Positions 7,412 to 14,930 of a DNA stretch of 43,187 bases are shown here, one piece after another; the stretch's first letter is position 1, and each line of letters starts with the position of its first letter. The notes under the pieces were generated by a model, which saw only the letters and a list, made by a program, of their open reading frames with translations, was not told the origin of the DNA and ran no database searches. The position numbers and the translations under genes are program-made. Source of the stretch: a bacterium (lineage in GTDB: Bacteria > Patescibacteriota > Patescibacteriia > UBA1558 > S5-K13); contig JAKPTO010000043.1 in assembly GCA_029555085.1 (NCBI GenBank), positions 1-43,187 of the forward strand, written 5' to 3'.

Positions 7412-9163
7412 TTACAATTTTCTGTCAAAATATTCATCTATAACTTCTAATGCTAATGGTTTAAAATTGTGAATACCCAACATTGCTCGCTCATCTCCTC
7501 TTTGTATTTTATTACTTGATAATATATCTGCTTTTTCCGTATAGGGTCTTACTGTGCTTGAATGTAGACGATGTTTTTGTTTAAAATTATGTAAAGCTAA
7601 AGTGGGATTTTGTTCTTTGTAATAAATAATTTTATTTGGCTTTTTTGCTTTATTTTCTCTGAAATAATTTTCCCAAAAATCCTCAGAGTTTATTGTGTCA
7701 GTTGCGTGTTTATAGTATAAACCATTATTCTTCAAAATAGTTTGTATTACTTCATCTAATCTAGATTCATAATCTTTGTAACCTAAATAAATTTCATGAG
7801 CATCTTTTATGTTTTTTAAAATATATGGATCTCGAGAAATCAAATCCAATAAATCCCCATCTTCTATATTTAACATTTCCCGCACTTTTTGTTTACTTTT
7901 TTCAAAAAAGTCCCTGGGTAAACCACTTCTATTATACTCCTCAAATTCTTTTATAATTTCATTAATATCTGAATTATCTATATTTATAATATTTTTTAAT
8001 ATTGCTACATTATTATCATCCACTATGGGATTTTGATTTTCATCTAATTCATATCTTGATCCAGTTTGTTTATCAACTTTTGCATTTTTTGGAATAAAAA
8101 CCAATCCACAATTAAGATCAATGCCTCTGTTTTCATTTGTCCAAACCCATACATCGTTCCAATAACCACCGCCACCATTTAAGATATTTCCATTATAATA
8201 ATATTGACTCGCAATAAGCGCCGATGGAAAACAGAAAAACACTTCATTAAACTTTTCCGATCCATAATAACAGTCAGCAACTTCTTCTGTTGCAAAATGA
8301 ATAGCATTAGAATCCGAATAACTGCCGGCATCTGACATTCTCTCTGGATCTAATTTATAATTTAAAGATTCTATAGCCTGCTCTTTACTTTCATATAAAT
8401 TTAGATATAAAAAATTTTCAATTGCTTGTTTTTTGTTTTCTTGTGATAGGTAGACCCCGAGCGGTGACTTTAATCTCCCATCTTCTAAAATTTCCATGAA
8501 ACCCCTAGAATAATCCCCTTCTCCCGCAGAATGAAACATGTGTCCTGTATGATCTCTTATTCCTTGTCTTGTAACATGAGTTACCATGTTACTTGGAAAT
8601 CTTTGCAATAAAATAATATAATCCTCAAGCGACACCTCTTTTAACTTATCTTCATTAAAATATTTTTCCATGGTTTCAAAATCATATCCACAATTTTGCC
8701 ACTTTTCCAACTCTCTTCTATGAAAATCTTCAGAGATAAACTTTGCTCCGCTTAAATCTAATAAATAATTAAGTTTATTTAATTCAATGGTTTTTATATT
8801 TTTATTTTCTTTAAGTTCCTCTATTTTGTTTTCCAAATCTTCAAATGTTTGTTTCCCTATTTCAAGTTCTGCTTTTACTTTTTTTATCTTTTGGTAATTT
8901 AATAATTTCTTGAAAAAAGTATTTGAAAAATAATTTATCTGATTTTGTAGTTCGCTTATACTATCCAACACTTCCTCTAATTTATTCTCTCTTTCAACAA
9001 TTTCATTGTTTAAATTATAAAAATCTATATCTTTTTTATCTTTTTCTTTTAGAGCATCAAAATATCTAGACCTATAACTTCTGATCTTCTTTGCTGTTTC
9101 ATTTCTTTCCTCCTGGAGATTGTCTTTAGAAAATTCTCTTAAAATTTTTGATTCTTTAGCCAT
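7412..9163 (-). CDS. Uncharacterised protein: N-terminal coiled coil plus a conserved-looking globular domain (possible ART-like fold)
   Basis: 583-aa ORF; coiled-coil heptads in the first ~120 aa; then THVTR...FMEILEDGRLKS...AIHFATEEVADCYYG. Confidence 0.6.
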   Translation of the reverse strand: MAKESKILREFSKDNLQEERNETAKKIRSYRSRYFDALKEKDKKDIDFYNLNNEIVERENKLEEVLDSISELQNQINYFSNTFFKKLLNYQKIKKVKAELEIGKQTFEDLENKIEELKENKNIKTIELNKLNYLLDLSGAKFISEDFHRRELEKWQNCGYDFETMEKYFNEDKLKEVSLEDYIILLQRFPSNMVTHVTRQGIRDHTGHMFHSAGEGDYSRGFMEILEDGRLKSPLGVYLSQENKKQAIENFLYLNLYESKEQAIESLNYKLDPERMSDAGSYSDSNAIHFATEEVADCYYGSEKFNEVFFCFPSALIASQYYYNGNILNGGGGYWNDVWVWTNENRGIDLNCGLVFIPKNAKVDKQTGSRYELDENQNPIVDDNNVAILKNIINIDNSDINEIIKEFEEYNRSGLPRDFFEKSKQKVREMLNIEDGDLLDLISRDPYILKNIKDAHEIYLGYKDYESRLDEVIQTILKNNGLYYKHATDTINSEDFWENYFRENKAKKPNKIIYYKEQNPTLALHNFKQKHRLHSSTVRPYTEKADILSSNKIQRGDERAMLGIHNFKPLALEVIDEYFDRKL

Positions 9164-9170
9164 ATTATTA

Positions 9171-9642
9171 ATAATATACTGTTAATTAAACTTCAATAAC
9201 AACCGGCAAAACCGACTATTTTTGGATTATGTTGTTTTGCAAGTTTTCTTGTCTTATCTCTAGTTTTTTCTATTAAATCTTTATTTTCTTTCATATAAAC
9301 AAATCCTCTTGAGATTATATCTGGAGAATGAACTAATTCTCCAGTTTCTGAAGATAATGTAGCAATTGCAACAATCATTCCATCTTCGGCCATTTGCTTT
9401 CTATCACGAAGAACAATATTTGAAACATCGCCAACTCCCAAACCATCAACGAAAACATATCGGCGATATACATTATCTTTTAATCCCTGAGCTGGTCTTT
9501 CATTTCTCGAAATAACCGAAGAAGGGAAAACCACAGTATCTCCTTTTTCAATTTTTAAAAATCTGTGTTACTTGTTTACAATTTTCATTAAAACCACCCT
9601 ATTTTCTCCTTGTACACAAGCACAACAAATTACTATTTTATA
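9171..9642 (-). pseudogene. Truncated, internally deleted duplicate of the rnj 3' region (ORF 9193-9534 is a remnant)
   Basis: Near-identical to 13066-13890 but missing about 81 bp (13120-13200) and about 265 bp (about 13447-13712). In-frame TAA at 9568-9570 where rnj has GAA. C-terminus frameshifted (…NPKIVGFAGCY*). Confidence 0.9.
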
Positions 9643-9661: not shown

Positions 9662-10603
9662 TTATAAAGTAGTAATCGGCCTACTTTGAATTATATAAAA
9701 CTTACTTTTAAAATAAGCCCACTCTATGTCACAAGGAAACTTATAGTGCTTTTCTATATTTATACAAATTTTTGCTAGTTCTATAATCTGTTTATTGCTT
9801 AATTTTTGTTTTTCGCTATCCGATTCTAAAACTTTTACCCAAGAATTTCCACCGGTAGTAGATTTTTGAATTATTTTTCTATCCTGATTTGCAATATAAA
9901 TATCTGAAATTTTTAAATTTTTTTTATTTACAATATATGAGTCAGGAGTAATACTGCCAGATACAATTGCTTCACCAAGTCCATAACCAGCCTCTATTAT
10001 CATTTGATCTTTATCTTTTGTAACTGGATGAACTGTAAATGCAATTCCAGAAACCTCTGATTGAATCATAGATTGAACAACAACTGCAACAGAAATTTCT
10101 TTTTTATTTAATCCCTTTTCAAACCTATAAACGATTGCGCGTGGAGTAAAAAGCGATGCCCAACATTTTTTTACATTTTCAAATAAATCACGCTCTGTTG
10201 TATTTAAATAACTTTCAAGCTGTCCGGCCCAAGCATCTGATGCTCCATCTTCGCATGTTGCACTAGATCTAACAGCTACAAATTTTGATTTTAGTTCTTT
10301 AAAATTTTTTATAATTTCTGCCTTTATGTCTTTTGGTATATCTATACTTGTAATTAATTTTTTAATTTTTACAGATGCTTGATTTACGCTTTCAACTTTT
10401 TTCAAGTTTACAGATCTTAAAAATTCTTCGATTTTTTTATCAATTTTTGCATCAGCTACAAACTTATCAAAAGTAGTTGATAAAATTACAAAACCGTCCG
10501 GTACTGGAATTTTATTATTTATCATTTCTCCAAGAGACGCACCCTTTCCCCCAGCAATACTAGCATCATCCTTAAAAATATCTTTAAACTTTCTTGTAAA
10601 CAT
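9662..10603 (-). CDS. Stand-alone PEP/pyruvate-binding (PPDK_N, ATP-grasp) domain protein
   Basis: SIAGGKGASLGEMINNKIPVPDGFV; AVRSSATCEDGASDAWAGQLESYLN; EAGYGLGEAIVSGSITPDSY; DIEWAYF...IIQSRPITTL*. Ends at the natural domain boundary. Confidence 0.88.
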   Translation of the reverse strand: MFTRKFKDIFKDDASIAGGKGASLGEMINNKIPVPDGFVILSTTFDKFVADAKIDKKIEEFLRSVNLKKVESVNQASVKIKKLITSIDIPKDIKAEIIKNFKELKSKFVAVRSSATCEDGASDAWAGQLESYLNTTERDLFENVKKCWASLFTPRAIVYRFEKGLNKKEISVAVVVQSMIQSEVSGIAFTVHPVTKDKDQMIIEAGYGLGEAIVSGSITPDSYIVNKKNLKISDIYIANQDRKIIQKSTTGGNSWVKVLESDSEKQKLSNKQIIELAKICINIEKHYKFPCDIEWAYFKSKFYIIQSRPITTL

Positions 10604-10621
10604 AATTATTTTAATTATTTT

Positions 10622-11506
10622 TTATTTAAAATTTTTTTCATATTCTTTTCTTTCTTTTATTATATCTAACAACAATTCTTCATCTATGGATAATGCCTCT
10701 TTTTTGTTACCCATTGGATAAGTTATTACAATTTTCTTCCCATCAACACCTTGTTTTATTGTAACATCCATTCCCTCTAATTCTTTAAATCCGTTACCAA
10801 CAGACTCAACAAATTCATCTCTAACTTTCGATCCACTTATTTTTTCTAAACACTTAGCTATAAAAGATTCACAAACACTCTGATGAGTACCGAGATATCT
10901 TTCCAATTTATTTGTTAAGTTATCATCATTTTTTTCCGACTTCACTCTAGATCTATACATATTATCTGCAACTTTAAGATACTTAGCAAGAATTTCTGCT
11001 ATATTTCCAGCTTGCCTAATATATGTTGTAGTGTCTTTATCCCCATCTTCTATAGCCAAGTCATCGCTTTTATTAATCAAAACAGAAAGATATTGATCAG
11101 CTTTAAATGCATTCTTTAGCTCTAAACCAGTGGCACCATTGAGATAAAAACTTAGTCTATGGTCTTCCGTTATTTTTTTAAATGGAGTAAATTCTTCTAT
11201 TTTTTCTTCCATTTCTTTCAGATTTGCATTTGGACTGATTTCTTTTTGTCGTGCAAGCATAATATGAGCTGCTGTTTCTTTCGTTCTGTCTCTGTCGCTA
11301 CCAAATGCCACTGAAATAGAAGCGTCTGACCCATGCTTTTCCCCTATTTCACGCGCTCTACGCCTACCCTCTTCCGTAATTTCGATATGTTTATCTGGAA
11401 TGTCTGGGGTTGTTTCTCTTGGCCCATGTCTAAAAAATTTTAAAAATACTTCTACTTCTAGCTCCTCTTCTTGTTGTTCTATTTTTGTACTAAACGCCTC
11501 TTTCAT
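10622..11506 (-). CDS. Histidine phosphatase superfamily (phosphoglycerate mutase-like) protein
   Basis: RHG motif in LKFFRHGPRE; ITEEGRRRAREIGEKHG; AFGSDRDRTKETA; later GTHQSVCESF histidine. Confidence 0.75.
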   Translation of the reverse strand: MKEAFSTKIEQQEEELEVEVFLKFFRHGPRETTPDIPDKHIEITEEGRRRAREIGEKHGSDASISVAFGSDRDRTKETAAHIMLARQKEISPNANLKEMEEKIEEFTPFKKITEDHRLSFYLNGATGLELKNAFKADQYLSVLINKSDDLAIEDGDKDTTTYIRQAGNIAEILAKYLKVADNMYRSRVKSEKNDDNLTNKLERYLGTHQSVCESFIAKCLEKISGSKVRDEFVESVGNGFKELEGMDVTIKQGVDGKKIVITYPMGNKKEALSIDEELLLDIIKERKEYEKNFK

Positions 11507-11528
11507 AGTTCTGTCTATTTAATAAAAA

Positions 11529-13046
11529 TTATTTTTCATTTAAAATCTTTATAATTCCATTATTTGCATCAACCTCAATCAAGTCCCCATCTTTTAATAC
11601 TTGTGTAGCAATTTTAGTGCCTATTATACAAGGAATATTTAATTCACGAGATACTATTGCTGCATGGCAAGTAATTCCCCCTTCATTAGTTATTATTGCG
11701 GAAGCTTTTTCCATGGCAGATACGAAATCAGGAGTAGTCATTGTTGAAACCAAAATATCTCCTTTTTTTATTTTAGAAATTTCTTTGTATGATAAAATAA
11801 TTTTTGCCCTACCACGAACAATTCCCGGAGATGCAATTTGACCCCTTATTATCCTACCATCAAAATCATCTGAATCCACCTCAGATGGCAATTTTAAATT
11901 ATTATCTCTTATCACCTTGAGAGCTTTTTCTCCTGAGAAAACAGTATAAAACTCTGGATATGTACATGCAATACAAATATTTTCTCTTCTGTTTAATTCA
12001 TCATCAAAATTTAATTTATCTATCAACACATCCCCAAACTCTTTACGTGATAATAAATATAACCTACTCACAGAAATATTAGTTCTTTTAGATATTTGAA
12101 TCATCAAACGATTCAAATAAAAATGGGATTCAGTTACTATAGCTTTTCTTTCATCTTGCAAGGATGACAAATAATGCATAGACTTTATCAATCCTAAGGA
12201 CCCTTGATCTATTCTATATTTTTTCTTAATTAAACTATGTTGACGCCTTAATTTATTTGAATATTGTAATAATTCATTTAATTTGCATTCAATCTCTTCT
12301 TTTGGATTCTTCAACTCTTTTTTTAATTCTTTAACAATATAAGCCTCATCCCAAATATCTGGCCCTGTATAATCAAACGGAATCCAAAAATATTTTTGAA
12401 CTAAATTTTTAATTTGAGAATCAACTTCTAAAAATATATCTTTTTTGAGACTTATGCTTTTACATTTCTCTAATTTATTTTTTAACTGTAAACTTATTTT
12501 CAAAAATTCTACATTAAACAAACTTAAATAACTTGGCTTTGTTGGAGAAATAATTAGATTAATGTCATCCTCTAACATAGAATATTTTTTCAACATACTA
12601 TCCTTGAAATACTTATATAAACGATCTGCTGCACATATTGAAGGCGCTGCGTTAATACGAGCAAAATCTTCGTAAAAATCTATATACTTTGAAATTTTAT
12701 TAAAAAGTTCTATATTAGAATTATTTTTTAAGCTATCACTGTTTAAATTTAAACGACACCACTTCAACCATTTATTTCCAAATATTTTAGTATTTCTATA
12801 GCAATTATAAATATATTTTTCGTCATTTAAAATTTTTTGAAGTAAACTTTTTTGAATATTCAAAAAATGTTTCTCATCCATGCTTAATTGCATCCATCCA
12901 TTCTCAATAATCAAAAATACGGCGCCAAAATTAAATCCTGATTTATTCTTATACATTTTACTCCAATAATATTGTATTGGCGTTAATAAAGGAACTCTTC
13001 TTTTCTTGAATGCAAAGCTTTTTTTACTTTTAATTGTTTTGCGCAT
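11529..13046 (-). CDS. PEP-utilising enzyme mobile (phospho-His swivelling) domain protein with a novel ~390-aa N-terminal helical region
   Basis: C-terminus GQIASPGIVRGRAKII...GDILVSTMTTPDFVSAMEKASAIITNEGGITCHAAIVSRELNIPCIIGTKIAT. Confidence 0.85.
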   Translation of the reverse strand: MRKTIKSKKSFAFKKRRVPLLTPIQYYWSKMYKNKSGFNFGAVFLIIENGWMQLSMDEKHFLNIQKSLLQKILNDEKYIYNCYRNTKIFGNKWLKWCRLNLNSDSLKNNSNIELFNKISKYIDFYEDFARINAAPSICAADRLYKYFKDSMLKKYSMLEDDINLIISPTKPSYLSLFNVEFLKISLQLKNKLEKCKSISLKKDIFLEVDSQIKNLVQKYFWIPFDYTGPDIWDEAYIVKELKKELKNPKEEIECKLNELLQYSNKLRRQHSLIKKKYRIDQGSLGLIKSMHYLSSLQDERKAIVTESHFYLNRLMIQISKRTNISVSRLYLLSRKEFGDVLIDKLNFDDELNRRENICIACTYPEFYTVFSGEKALKVIRDNNLKLPSEVDSDDFDGRIIRGQIASPGIVRGRAKIILSYKEISKIKKGDILVSTMTTPDFVSAMEKASAIITNEGGITCHAAIVSRELNIPCIIGTKIATQVLKDGDLIEVDANNGIIKILNEK

Positions 13047-13091
13047 TTGTTTTAAAATAATACTTACTTTATTATTTTAATATACTGTTAA

Positions 13092-14930
13092 TTAAACTTC
13101 AATAACAACCGGCAAAACCATTGGTCTTCTTTTTGTTTCTTGAAACAAAAATTTTCCCAATTCATCCCTAATTTTATTTTTTAGATACATATCATTTTGA
13201 GCTATTTTTGGATTATGTTGTTTTGCAAGTTTTCTTACTTTATCTCTAGTTTTTTCTATTAAATCTTTATTTTCTTTCATATAAACAAATCCTCTTGAAA
13301 TTATATCTGGAGAGTGAACTAATTCTCCAGTTTCTGAAGATAATGTAGCAATTGCAACAATCATTCCATCTTCGGCCATTTGCTTTCTATCACGAAGAAC
13401 AATATTTGAAACATCGCCAACTCCCAAACCATCAACGAAAACATAGTCAGCATTGACTCTTTTGTTTGTTAATTTTCCACCAAGTTTTGTAAATTCCATA
13501 ATTTGACCATTATCAGCTATAAAAATATTTTCTTGTTTAATTCCACATTCTTGAGCAATTTTTGCATGAAGATGTAAAAATGAATGATTACCTTCTATAG
13601 GAATAAAATATCTTGGTTTAACTAAATTTATCATAAGTTTCAAATCTTCTTTTTTTGCATGTCCTCCAGCATGAATATCCATCATCTGATAATGAATAAC
13701 ATCTGCACCCTGACGATATAAATTATCTTTCAATCTCTGAACCGATCTTTCATTTCCTGGAATAACCGAAGAAGAGAAAACTACAGTATCTCCTTTTTCA
13801 ATTTTTAAAAATCTATGTTCTTTGTTTACAATTCTCATTAAAACTGCCTTATCTTCTCCTTGTGCGCCAGTACAACAAATCACAATTTTATTATTTGGAT
13901 ATTCTTTTAATTGTTTTTCTGAAATTAATAAATCTTTTTTATAACTCAAATATCCTAACTGATGAGCAATTTCTACATTTGTTTTCATGCTATAACCATC
14001 TATTAATACTTTTTTATTTAATTTTTCGCATGCTTCAAAAATTTGTTGCAATCTATTTAAAAGAGATGAAAAAGTTCCCACTATAACTCTCCCCGGAACA
14101 TTTTGTAAAATTTCAAACAAATTTGATTTAATTTCTGCTTCGCTTATTTGGTGTCCAGGATGAGAAGCATTTGTTGAGTCGGATAAAAGAGCTAAAACAT
14201 TTTGATTTCCTAAATCCGAAATCTTATCAATTTCTGGCATGTCCATTTTTGGTCCATTAAAATCGAGCTTAAAATCTCCACTATGAACAACTTTTCCAAG
14301 CGGTGTATCTATTATAAGCCCAACTGATGCTGGAATATTGTGACTAACTGCAAAAAAAGCAACTCTAAAAACACCAAGATGTAAAACATCGCTTGTTTTT
14401 ACTGACTTTAAATTCAATGGCGCAATATCTTTGAATTCTTCTTCTCTTTTTTTAATAATTCCTAAAGTAAGTGGAGTTCCATAAATTGTTGGATTTCCAA
14501 GGCTAGGCACTAAATATGGAATAGCGCCAATGTGATCCAAATGTCCGTGAGTAATTACAATTCCTCTTATATTTTTTTCTTTACCCTTTAGGTATTCTAT
14601 ATTTGGAATAACAAGATCGATTCCTGGCATATCTTCTTCTGGAAATGAAACGCCCATATCAACTATAATAATATCATTTTCATACTCTAAAAGAGTCATA
14701 TTTCTTCCGACCTCTTCATTTCCTCCCATTACAATGATCTTTAATTTTCCATGATCAAAGGTTTTTGTATTTTTCAAAGAAGCATTGCTGGATTGATTAG
14801 CCCTAACTGTTTTCTTTGGACTTACGTGATAACGTATTGATTGTTTTTTTCTATTTCTACTATGGGTAGATTTACCCTTAGGAGATATTTTTTTAGTATT
14901 CATATTTTTTAATCTTGAATAAAATCCCAT
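13092..14930 (-). CDS. rnj: Ribonuclease J (MBL-fold, beta-CASP)
   Basis: ITHGHLDHIGAIPYL, SHNIPASVGL, SDSTNASHPGH, PIEGNHSFLHLHAKIAQECG, C-terminal RNase J domain. Confidence 0.95.
   Translation of the reverse strand: MGFYSRLKNMNTKKISPKGKSTHSRNRKKQSIRYHVSPKKTVRANQSSNASLKNTKTFDHGKLKIIVMGGNEEVGRNMTLLEYENDIIIVDMGVSFPEEDMPGIDLVIPNIEYLKGKEKNIRGIVITHGHLDHIGAIPYLVPSLGNPTIYGTPLTLGIIKKREEEFKDIAPLNLKSVKTSDVLHLGVFRVAFFAVSHNIPASVGLIIDTPLGKVVHSGDFKLDFNGPKMDMPEIDKISDLGNQNVLALLSDSTNASHPGHQISEAEIKSNLFEILQNVPGRVIVGTFSSLLNRLQQIFEACEKLNKKVLIDGYSMKTNVEIAHQLGYLSYKKDLLISEKQLKEYPNNKIVICCTGAQGEDKAVLMRIVNKEHRFLKIEKGDTVVFSSSVIPGNERSVQRLKDNLYRQGADVIHYQMMDIHAGGHAKKEDLKLMINLVKPRYFIPIEGNHSFLHLHAKIAQECGIKQENIFIADNGQIMEFTKLGGKLTNKRVNADYVFVDGLGVGDVSNIVLRDRKQMAEDGMIVAIATLSSETGELVHSPDIISRGFVYMKENKDLIEKTRDKVRKLAKQHNPKIAQNDMYLKNKIRDELGKFLFQETKRRPMVLPVVIEV

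Follow-up and report, generated by a model that had tools for sequence, protein, structure and literature searches.

What reaction would be carried out by three consecutive bacterial genes that together encode an ATP-grasp domain, a swivelling phosphohistidine domain and a histidine phosphatase, without the TIM barrel that accompanies the first two in PEP synthase and PPDK? This question is raised by a cassette in the window, that is, the 43,187-nucleotide stretch of DNA analysed here, which comes from a Patescibacteria/CPR genome of 1.02 Mb (53 contigs, 99% complete). The answer that best explains the whole of the evidence, to which we would assign a probability of about 0.7, is that a dikinase resembling rifampin phosphotransferase (RPH) is split here between the 313-aa and 505-aa products, with a phosphatase encoded next to them.

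A three-gene cassette with separate ATP-grasp and acceptor-His subunits

The cassette consists of three intact open reading frames in tandem on the minus strand, with gaps of 22 nt and 18 nt (13046-11529, 11506-10622 and 10603-9662), in agreement with an earlier sequence-only reading of this DNA, which had described three consecutive minus-strand genes spaced by about 20 nt. The same reading had named the products as a swivelling His-domain protein, a histidine phosphatase and a PPDK_N protein, and Pfam supports all three identifications:

11529..13046, minus strand: acceptor-His subunit (X-H), 505 aa, with a predicted helical acceptor domain at aa ~40-390 and a swivel domain at aa ~398-505 (Pfam PEP-utilizers, PF00391, at aa 426-497, 2.5e-26)
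10622..11506, minus strand: histidine phosphatase of the branch-1 fold with a large helical insertion, 294 aa (Pfam His_Phos_1, PF00300, 3.3e-8)
9662..10603, minus strand: stand-alone PPDK_N ATP-grasp subunit, 313 aa (Pfam PF01326, covering aa 16-312, 1.5e-96)

Gene boundaries, Pfam matches and fold concur in placing the ATP-grasp and the acceptor-swivel parts on separate polypeptides, and the catalytic residues of all three proteins are intact. A PADLOC search for anti-phage defence families returned no match for these proteins or for orf583, the product of a nearby gene discussed below. A phage-borne origin was considered and rejected, given that merely two viral contigs carry distant relatives, at 42% and 23% identity.

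The helical region of the 505-aa protein has an RPH-type predicted fold

The swivel domain carries the motif GGITCHAA, in which the catalytic His461 is kept in every sequence of an alignment of 77 homologues. The helical region of ~390 aa that precedes it had been taken for a novel one, and this part of the sequence-only reading has to be given up. In a Foldseek search with the AF2 model of the 505-aa protein (pLDDT 88.3, pTM 0.84), the top six PDB matches were all RPH-Lm (5fbt, E 7.6e-17, TMq 0.58), and the matches below them aligned poorly outside the swivel domain; comparison of the N-terminal region encoded within 11529-13046 with RPH, which that reading had itself proposed, thus recovered an RPH-type fold. 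The full-length family profile aligns with RPH across 384 positions. When the acceptor domain alone was used as a sequence profile, no PDB entry matched, so that the assignment rests on the predicted fold together with an alignment that extends outward from the swivel domain. Judged by this model, the helical region is an acceptor domain of the RPH type. In an iterative profile search, the N-terminal regions of 190 of 204 acceptor-His proteins fell into one superfamily.

The acceptor-site motif of RPH is retained in part. The RPH block R666-E667-x-x-K670 (PMC4844700) aligns with Q297-D298-E299-R300-K301 of the window protein, with Asp in place of Glu, the Lys kept and the Arg shifted by three positions. 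Among the 77 homologues, the position of R300 is Arg in 69 and that of K301 is Lys or Arg in 63, and the position of D298 is Asp in 39.

The ATP-grasp subunit and the proposed reaction

The profile of the ATP-grasp family matches end to end both RPH (5fbs, 6e-89) and HpeI (9goj, 4e-76), with profile positions 1-314 aligned with 5fbs 1-316. K20 and R112 are present in 15/15 homologues, and position 131 is Ser or Thr in the same 15; given the near-collinear alignment, K20, R112 and S131 of the window protein would correspond to K22, R117 and T136 of RPH. It is the combination of an RPH-type acceptor part with a separate ATP-grasp that points to a split RPH-like dikinase.

By this account, the stand-alone ATP-grasp would bind ATP and, acting in trans, likely phosphorylates His461 on the 505-aa protein; the beta-phosphoryl group would probably be the one transferred, with formation of AMP and Pi, as in RPH. 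From there, the swivel domain would deliver the phosphate to an acceptor bound by the helical RPH-type domain that precedes it on the same chain; by family precedent, this acceptor is likely to be a small molecule. The adjacent phosphatase could act on the product or on the phosphohistidine, in either case removing the phosphate.

Not a dismantled PEP synthase

Since the ATP-grasp and swivel domains are homologous to those of PEP synthase, the cassette could in principle be the remnant of a broken PEP synthase, or represent PEP metabolism carried out in parts. We consider this very improbable and reject it. The genome encodes an intact 803-aa PEP synthase and an intact 893-aa PPDK on other contigs, and the PEP-utilizers_C TIM barrel (PF02896), which the sequence-only reading had already found missing from the operon, occurs genome-wide only within these two proteins, so that there is no stray TIM barrel to complete the set. 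Moreover, the acceptor domain has, in the model, an RPH fold, and the split arrangement recurs across Patescibacteria, rather than being a fused PEP synthase disrupted in this genome only. Each of the three refuting conditions that the sequence-only reading had set for itself turned out in its favour. The proposal of RPH-type chemistry in the absence of the TIM barrel stands, strengthened by the predicted fold, by natural fusions in the RPH order and by the co-occurrence of the genes, even though the supposed novelty of the helical part does not.

The same genome encodes a second protein of the acceptor-His type, 500 aa long, on contig C23 (L035:9535-11037), beside a carbamate kinase gene and with no ATP-grasp gene nearby. 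Plausibly, the ATP-grasp of the cassette would serve this protein as well.

Natural fusions

In 30 polypeptides, the ATP-grasp, the acceptor domain and the swivel domain follow one another on one chain in the order found in RPH, with the last swivel His located 40-46 aa from the C-terminus. Several of these chains carry more than one acceptor-His module in series behind a single ATP-grasp, namely, two modules at L159, L155, L165, L139 and L167, three at L110 and L133, and four at L141, in a 2217-aa protein of Woesearchaeota. On the ATP-grasp tree (FastTree), parsimony counts 13 changes between the fused and the separate state, at least 5 of which are forced by well-supported branches. The natural fusions tie the ATP-grasp and acceptor-His parts together functionally, and the multi-module chains demonstrate directly that a single ATP-grasp can have several acceptor-His modules joined to it.

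Batteries of acceptor-His proteins in related genomes

A stand-alone ATP-grasp was found in 33 of 91 relatives, a set that takes in G016, G026 and G027, where the copy is fragmentary, and G074, where it is fused. The PF00391 count per genome, which includes 1-2 domains contributed by PEP synthase and PPDK, has a median of 5 (maximum 20) in these 33 genomes, as against 1 in the remaining 58 (Mann-Whitney p=1.4e-13, with the reservation that related genomes are not independent points), and counts of three or more are reached in 23/33 of the former vs 2/58 of the latter. The largest battery comprises up to about 18 acceptor-His proteins beyond PEP synthase and PPDK, in a genome of ~1 Mb. Several stand-alone ATP-grasp genes look broken or fragmentary (in G016, G026, G027, G046 and G063), which suggests repeated loss.

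The genes are linked as well. An X-H gene directly abuts 29 of 68 stand-alone ATP-grasp genes, with a median gap of 4 nt, and lies within 6 genes of 49 of them; the remaining 19, some of which are at contig ends, have none in that range. Together with the phosphatase homologues, 12 of 14 of which are immediate neighbours of a same-strand X-H gene, this is the co-occurrence on which the sequence-only reading had made its case depend. Acceptor-His genes also form runs; L030, for example, has ten of them within 20 kb, and there are at least seven in L067, L087, L088 and L095. At least 80 loci belong to named genomes of Falkow-, Komeili-, Moran-, Doudna-, Berkel- and Parcubacteria, Microgenomates, SR1 and DPANN, the last represented by Woesearchaeota and Nanoarchaeota, and an even sample of the phylum yielded 40 of 381 genomes at a strict cut-off.

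Recent tandem duplication was considered as the source of the arrays and rejected: for 95 of 97 array members, the best acceptor-domain match is in another genome, at a median identity of 29%. The arrays are thus assemblies of old, possibly exchanged subfamilies.

On balance, then, a single ATP-grasp in these relatives would seem to serve many acceptor-His proteins in trans. We lean, by a little, toward a still broader proposition, a multiplexed dikinase in which one shared ATP-grasp would supply many X-H proteins, each with its own acceptor, along with dedicated phosphatases, the whole making up a general phosphorylation platform specific to Patescibacteria and DPANN.

The phosphatase and the nature of the acceptor

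R26, H27, R74 and H208 are invariant in 8/8 homologues of the phosphatase, and its AF2 model (pLDDT 89) finds its best Foldseek matches within the histidine phosphatase superfamily, the helical insertion included in the model. The consistent placement of the phosphatase beside X-H genes can be read in another way, namely, that the cassette is a protein-directed signalling system or phosphorelay, in which the swivel His would pass its phosphate to a protein partner, or itself be the signal, and would be reset by the phosphatase just as SixA, a member of the same superfamily that dephosphorylates a phosphocarrier His, resets NPr (PMC7948535). We consider signalling unlikely because the carrier comes with a complete acceptor domain of the RPH type, and its paralogues are as diverse as would be expected if they handled different acceptors; furthermore, small-molecule phosphatases make up most of the Foldseek matches of the phosphatase, SixA ranking low, and the list of families in the scanned neighbourhoods includes no HPr- or NPr-like partner.

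The surroundings of the arrays bear on yet another possibility. HAD hydrolases account for 8 of 134 array neighbours and Pfam-recognised histidine phosphatases for 5; further proteins with an RH motif (27/169) were picked up by a loose pattern, so that this number is an upper bound. Nucleotide-sugar enzymes, APH kinases, M20 peptidases and amidohydrolases are found there, too. The presence of nucleotide-sugar enzymes, amidohydrolases and kinases would suit a phosphate-activated ligase or condensing enzyme like PigC/RedH, in which the phosphate is transient and the product is condensed, and the NCBIfam PigC model does align with aa 255-501 of the 505-aa protein, beyond the swivel domain (1.1e-20). 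Nevertheless, the scores of 73 and 235 bits are far from the PigC/RedH cut-off of 1300, no biosynthetic partners were seen to recur as a consistent set, and the recurrent neighbours are phosphatases, which fits a phosphorylated product; a ligase therefore strikes us as a doubtful candidate, somewhat more so than a signalling relay. A split dikinase that phosphorylates a small molecule remains the reading that we prefer.

Several proteins near the arrays deserve mention in their own right. One gene, L143:12421-14391, joins a histidine phosphatase to a domain resembling N-formylglutamate amidohydrolase (FGase, 2.4e-30). Motifs of the RH or TH type occur in several proteins, unrecognised by Pfam, that are encoded at L070:9677-10255, L072:4067-4912, L124:2888-3361 and L115:6564-7475 and are possibly further histidine phosphatases. 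A conserved family of ~284 aa with no significant Pfam match occurs near acceptor-His genes in 10 loci (e.g. L092:12350-13207).

The cassette is an insertion beside rnj

Two further features of the window frame the cassette:

9172..9641, minus strand: decayed partial duplicate of the 3' end of rnj, at the far edge of the inserted segment
13092..14930, minus strand: intact RNase J gene (rnj), at the near edge of the insertion, part of the context and outside the system

In the sister genera represented by G001 and G002, only about 40-50 nt separate rnj from orf583, that is, the site is empty, whereas in the window the triad and the decayed rnj copy lie between them. The triad is thus an insertion beside rnj. 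The decayed copy is internally deleted and consists of segments of 42 nt, 244 nt and 178 nt that are 100%, 98% and 86% identical, respectively, to rnj at 13078-13891. It is on the side of this copy that orf583 keeps its original junction, as would be expected if incoming DNA that carried an rnj 3' end together with the triad had recombined at rnj, and we infer that this is how the insertion arose. The inserted genes do not stand out by a foreign composition, with a GC content of 0.27-0.33 for the triad vs a window mean of 0.30. A genome of the same genus, G003, has neither the phosphatase nor the stand-alone ATP-grasp. As for orf583 itself (window 7412-9163, 583 aa), no Pfam family matches it significantly, its counterparts next to rnj in G001 and G002 show 65% conservation, and a distant paralogue is encoded on contig C43.

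Relationship to known systems

PEP synthase and PPDK share homologous ATP-grasp and swivel domains with the window pair, which differs from them in lacking the TIM barrel, in its other acceptor domain and in the C-terminal position of the swivel domain. The likeness to RPH, the fused single-chain layout (PMC4844700), is closer and encompasses the three functional domains, the predicted acceptor fold, the ATP-grasp catalytic residues and, in relatives, fusions in the RPH order; however, RPH is a single chain with one acceptor domain, and its R666-E667-xx-K670 block is altered in the window protein. The NCBIfam model RIF_Ptrans_rph scores 270 and 68 bits on the two window proteins, below the cut-off of 999, which is set for the whole fused chain. 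Matches to rph in CPR genomes have been reported as resistance genes (PMC8651080); these may be members of the acceptor-His/ATP-grasp family described here. The SixA-NPr pair of PTS-Ntr (PMC7948535) likewise associates an enzyme of the histidine phosphatase superfamily with a phosphohistidine carrier, but the window phosphatase is larger and has an inserted helical cap.

Batteries of acceptor proteins, serial multi-module fusions and a linked histidine phosphatase are features for which we found no description in the open-access literature that was searched, an absence that is weak evidence of novelty. Genome-reduced, host-dependent bacteria give over as much as a few percent of their coding space to divergent acceptor-His proteins that apparently share one ATP-grasp. 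With nearly all closest relatives located in other genomes, these proteins do not look like recent copies but like distinct specificities that have been kept for a long time, and their substrates would tell what such organisms take up, detoxify or modify.

The closest parallels are the split dikinases already known, HpeHI, CreHI and PpsAB, the two-component phenolic dikinases (PMC12167813). There, too, the ATP-grasp is on one polypeptide and the acceptor and swivel-His parts are on another, the catalytic His is conserved, and RPH is the only PDB match of the acceptor part; the window ATP-grasp family is matched along its entire length by HpeI (9goj). The differences are that those systems have one acceptor subunit per ATP-grasp, act in aromatic catabolism and belong to another type of host, whereas here a histidine phosphatase is adjacent and the relatives have many divergent acceptor subunits as well as multi-module fusions. 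Thus, the split dikinase layout and the RPH acceptor fold are already known, and what is new are the batteries and multi-module fusions in the relatives, in which the layout of one kinase with many acceptors extends the idea of the two-component dikinase.
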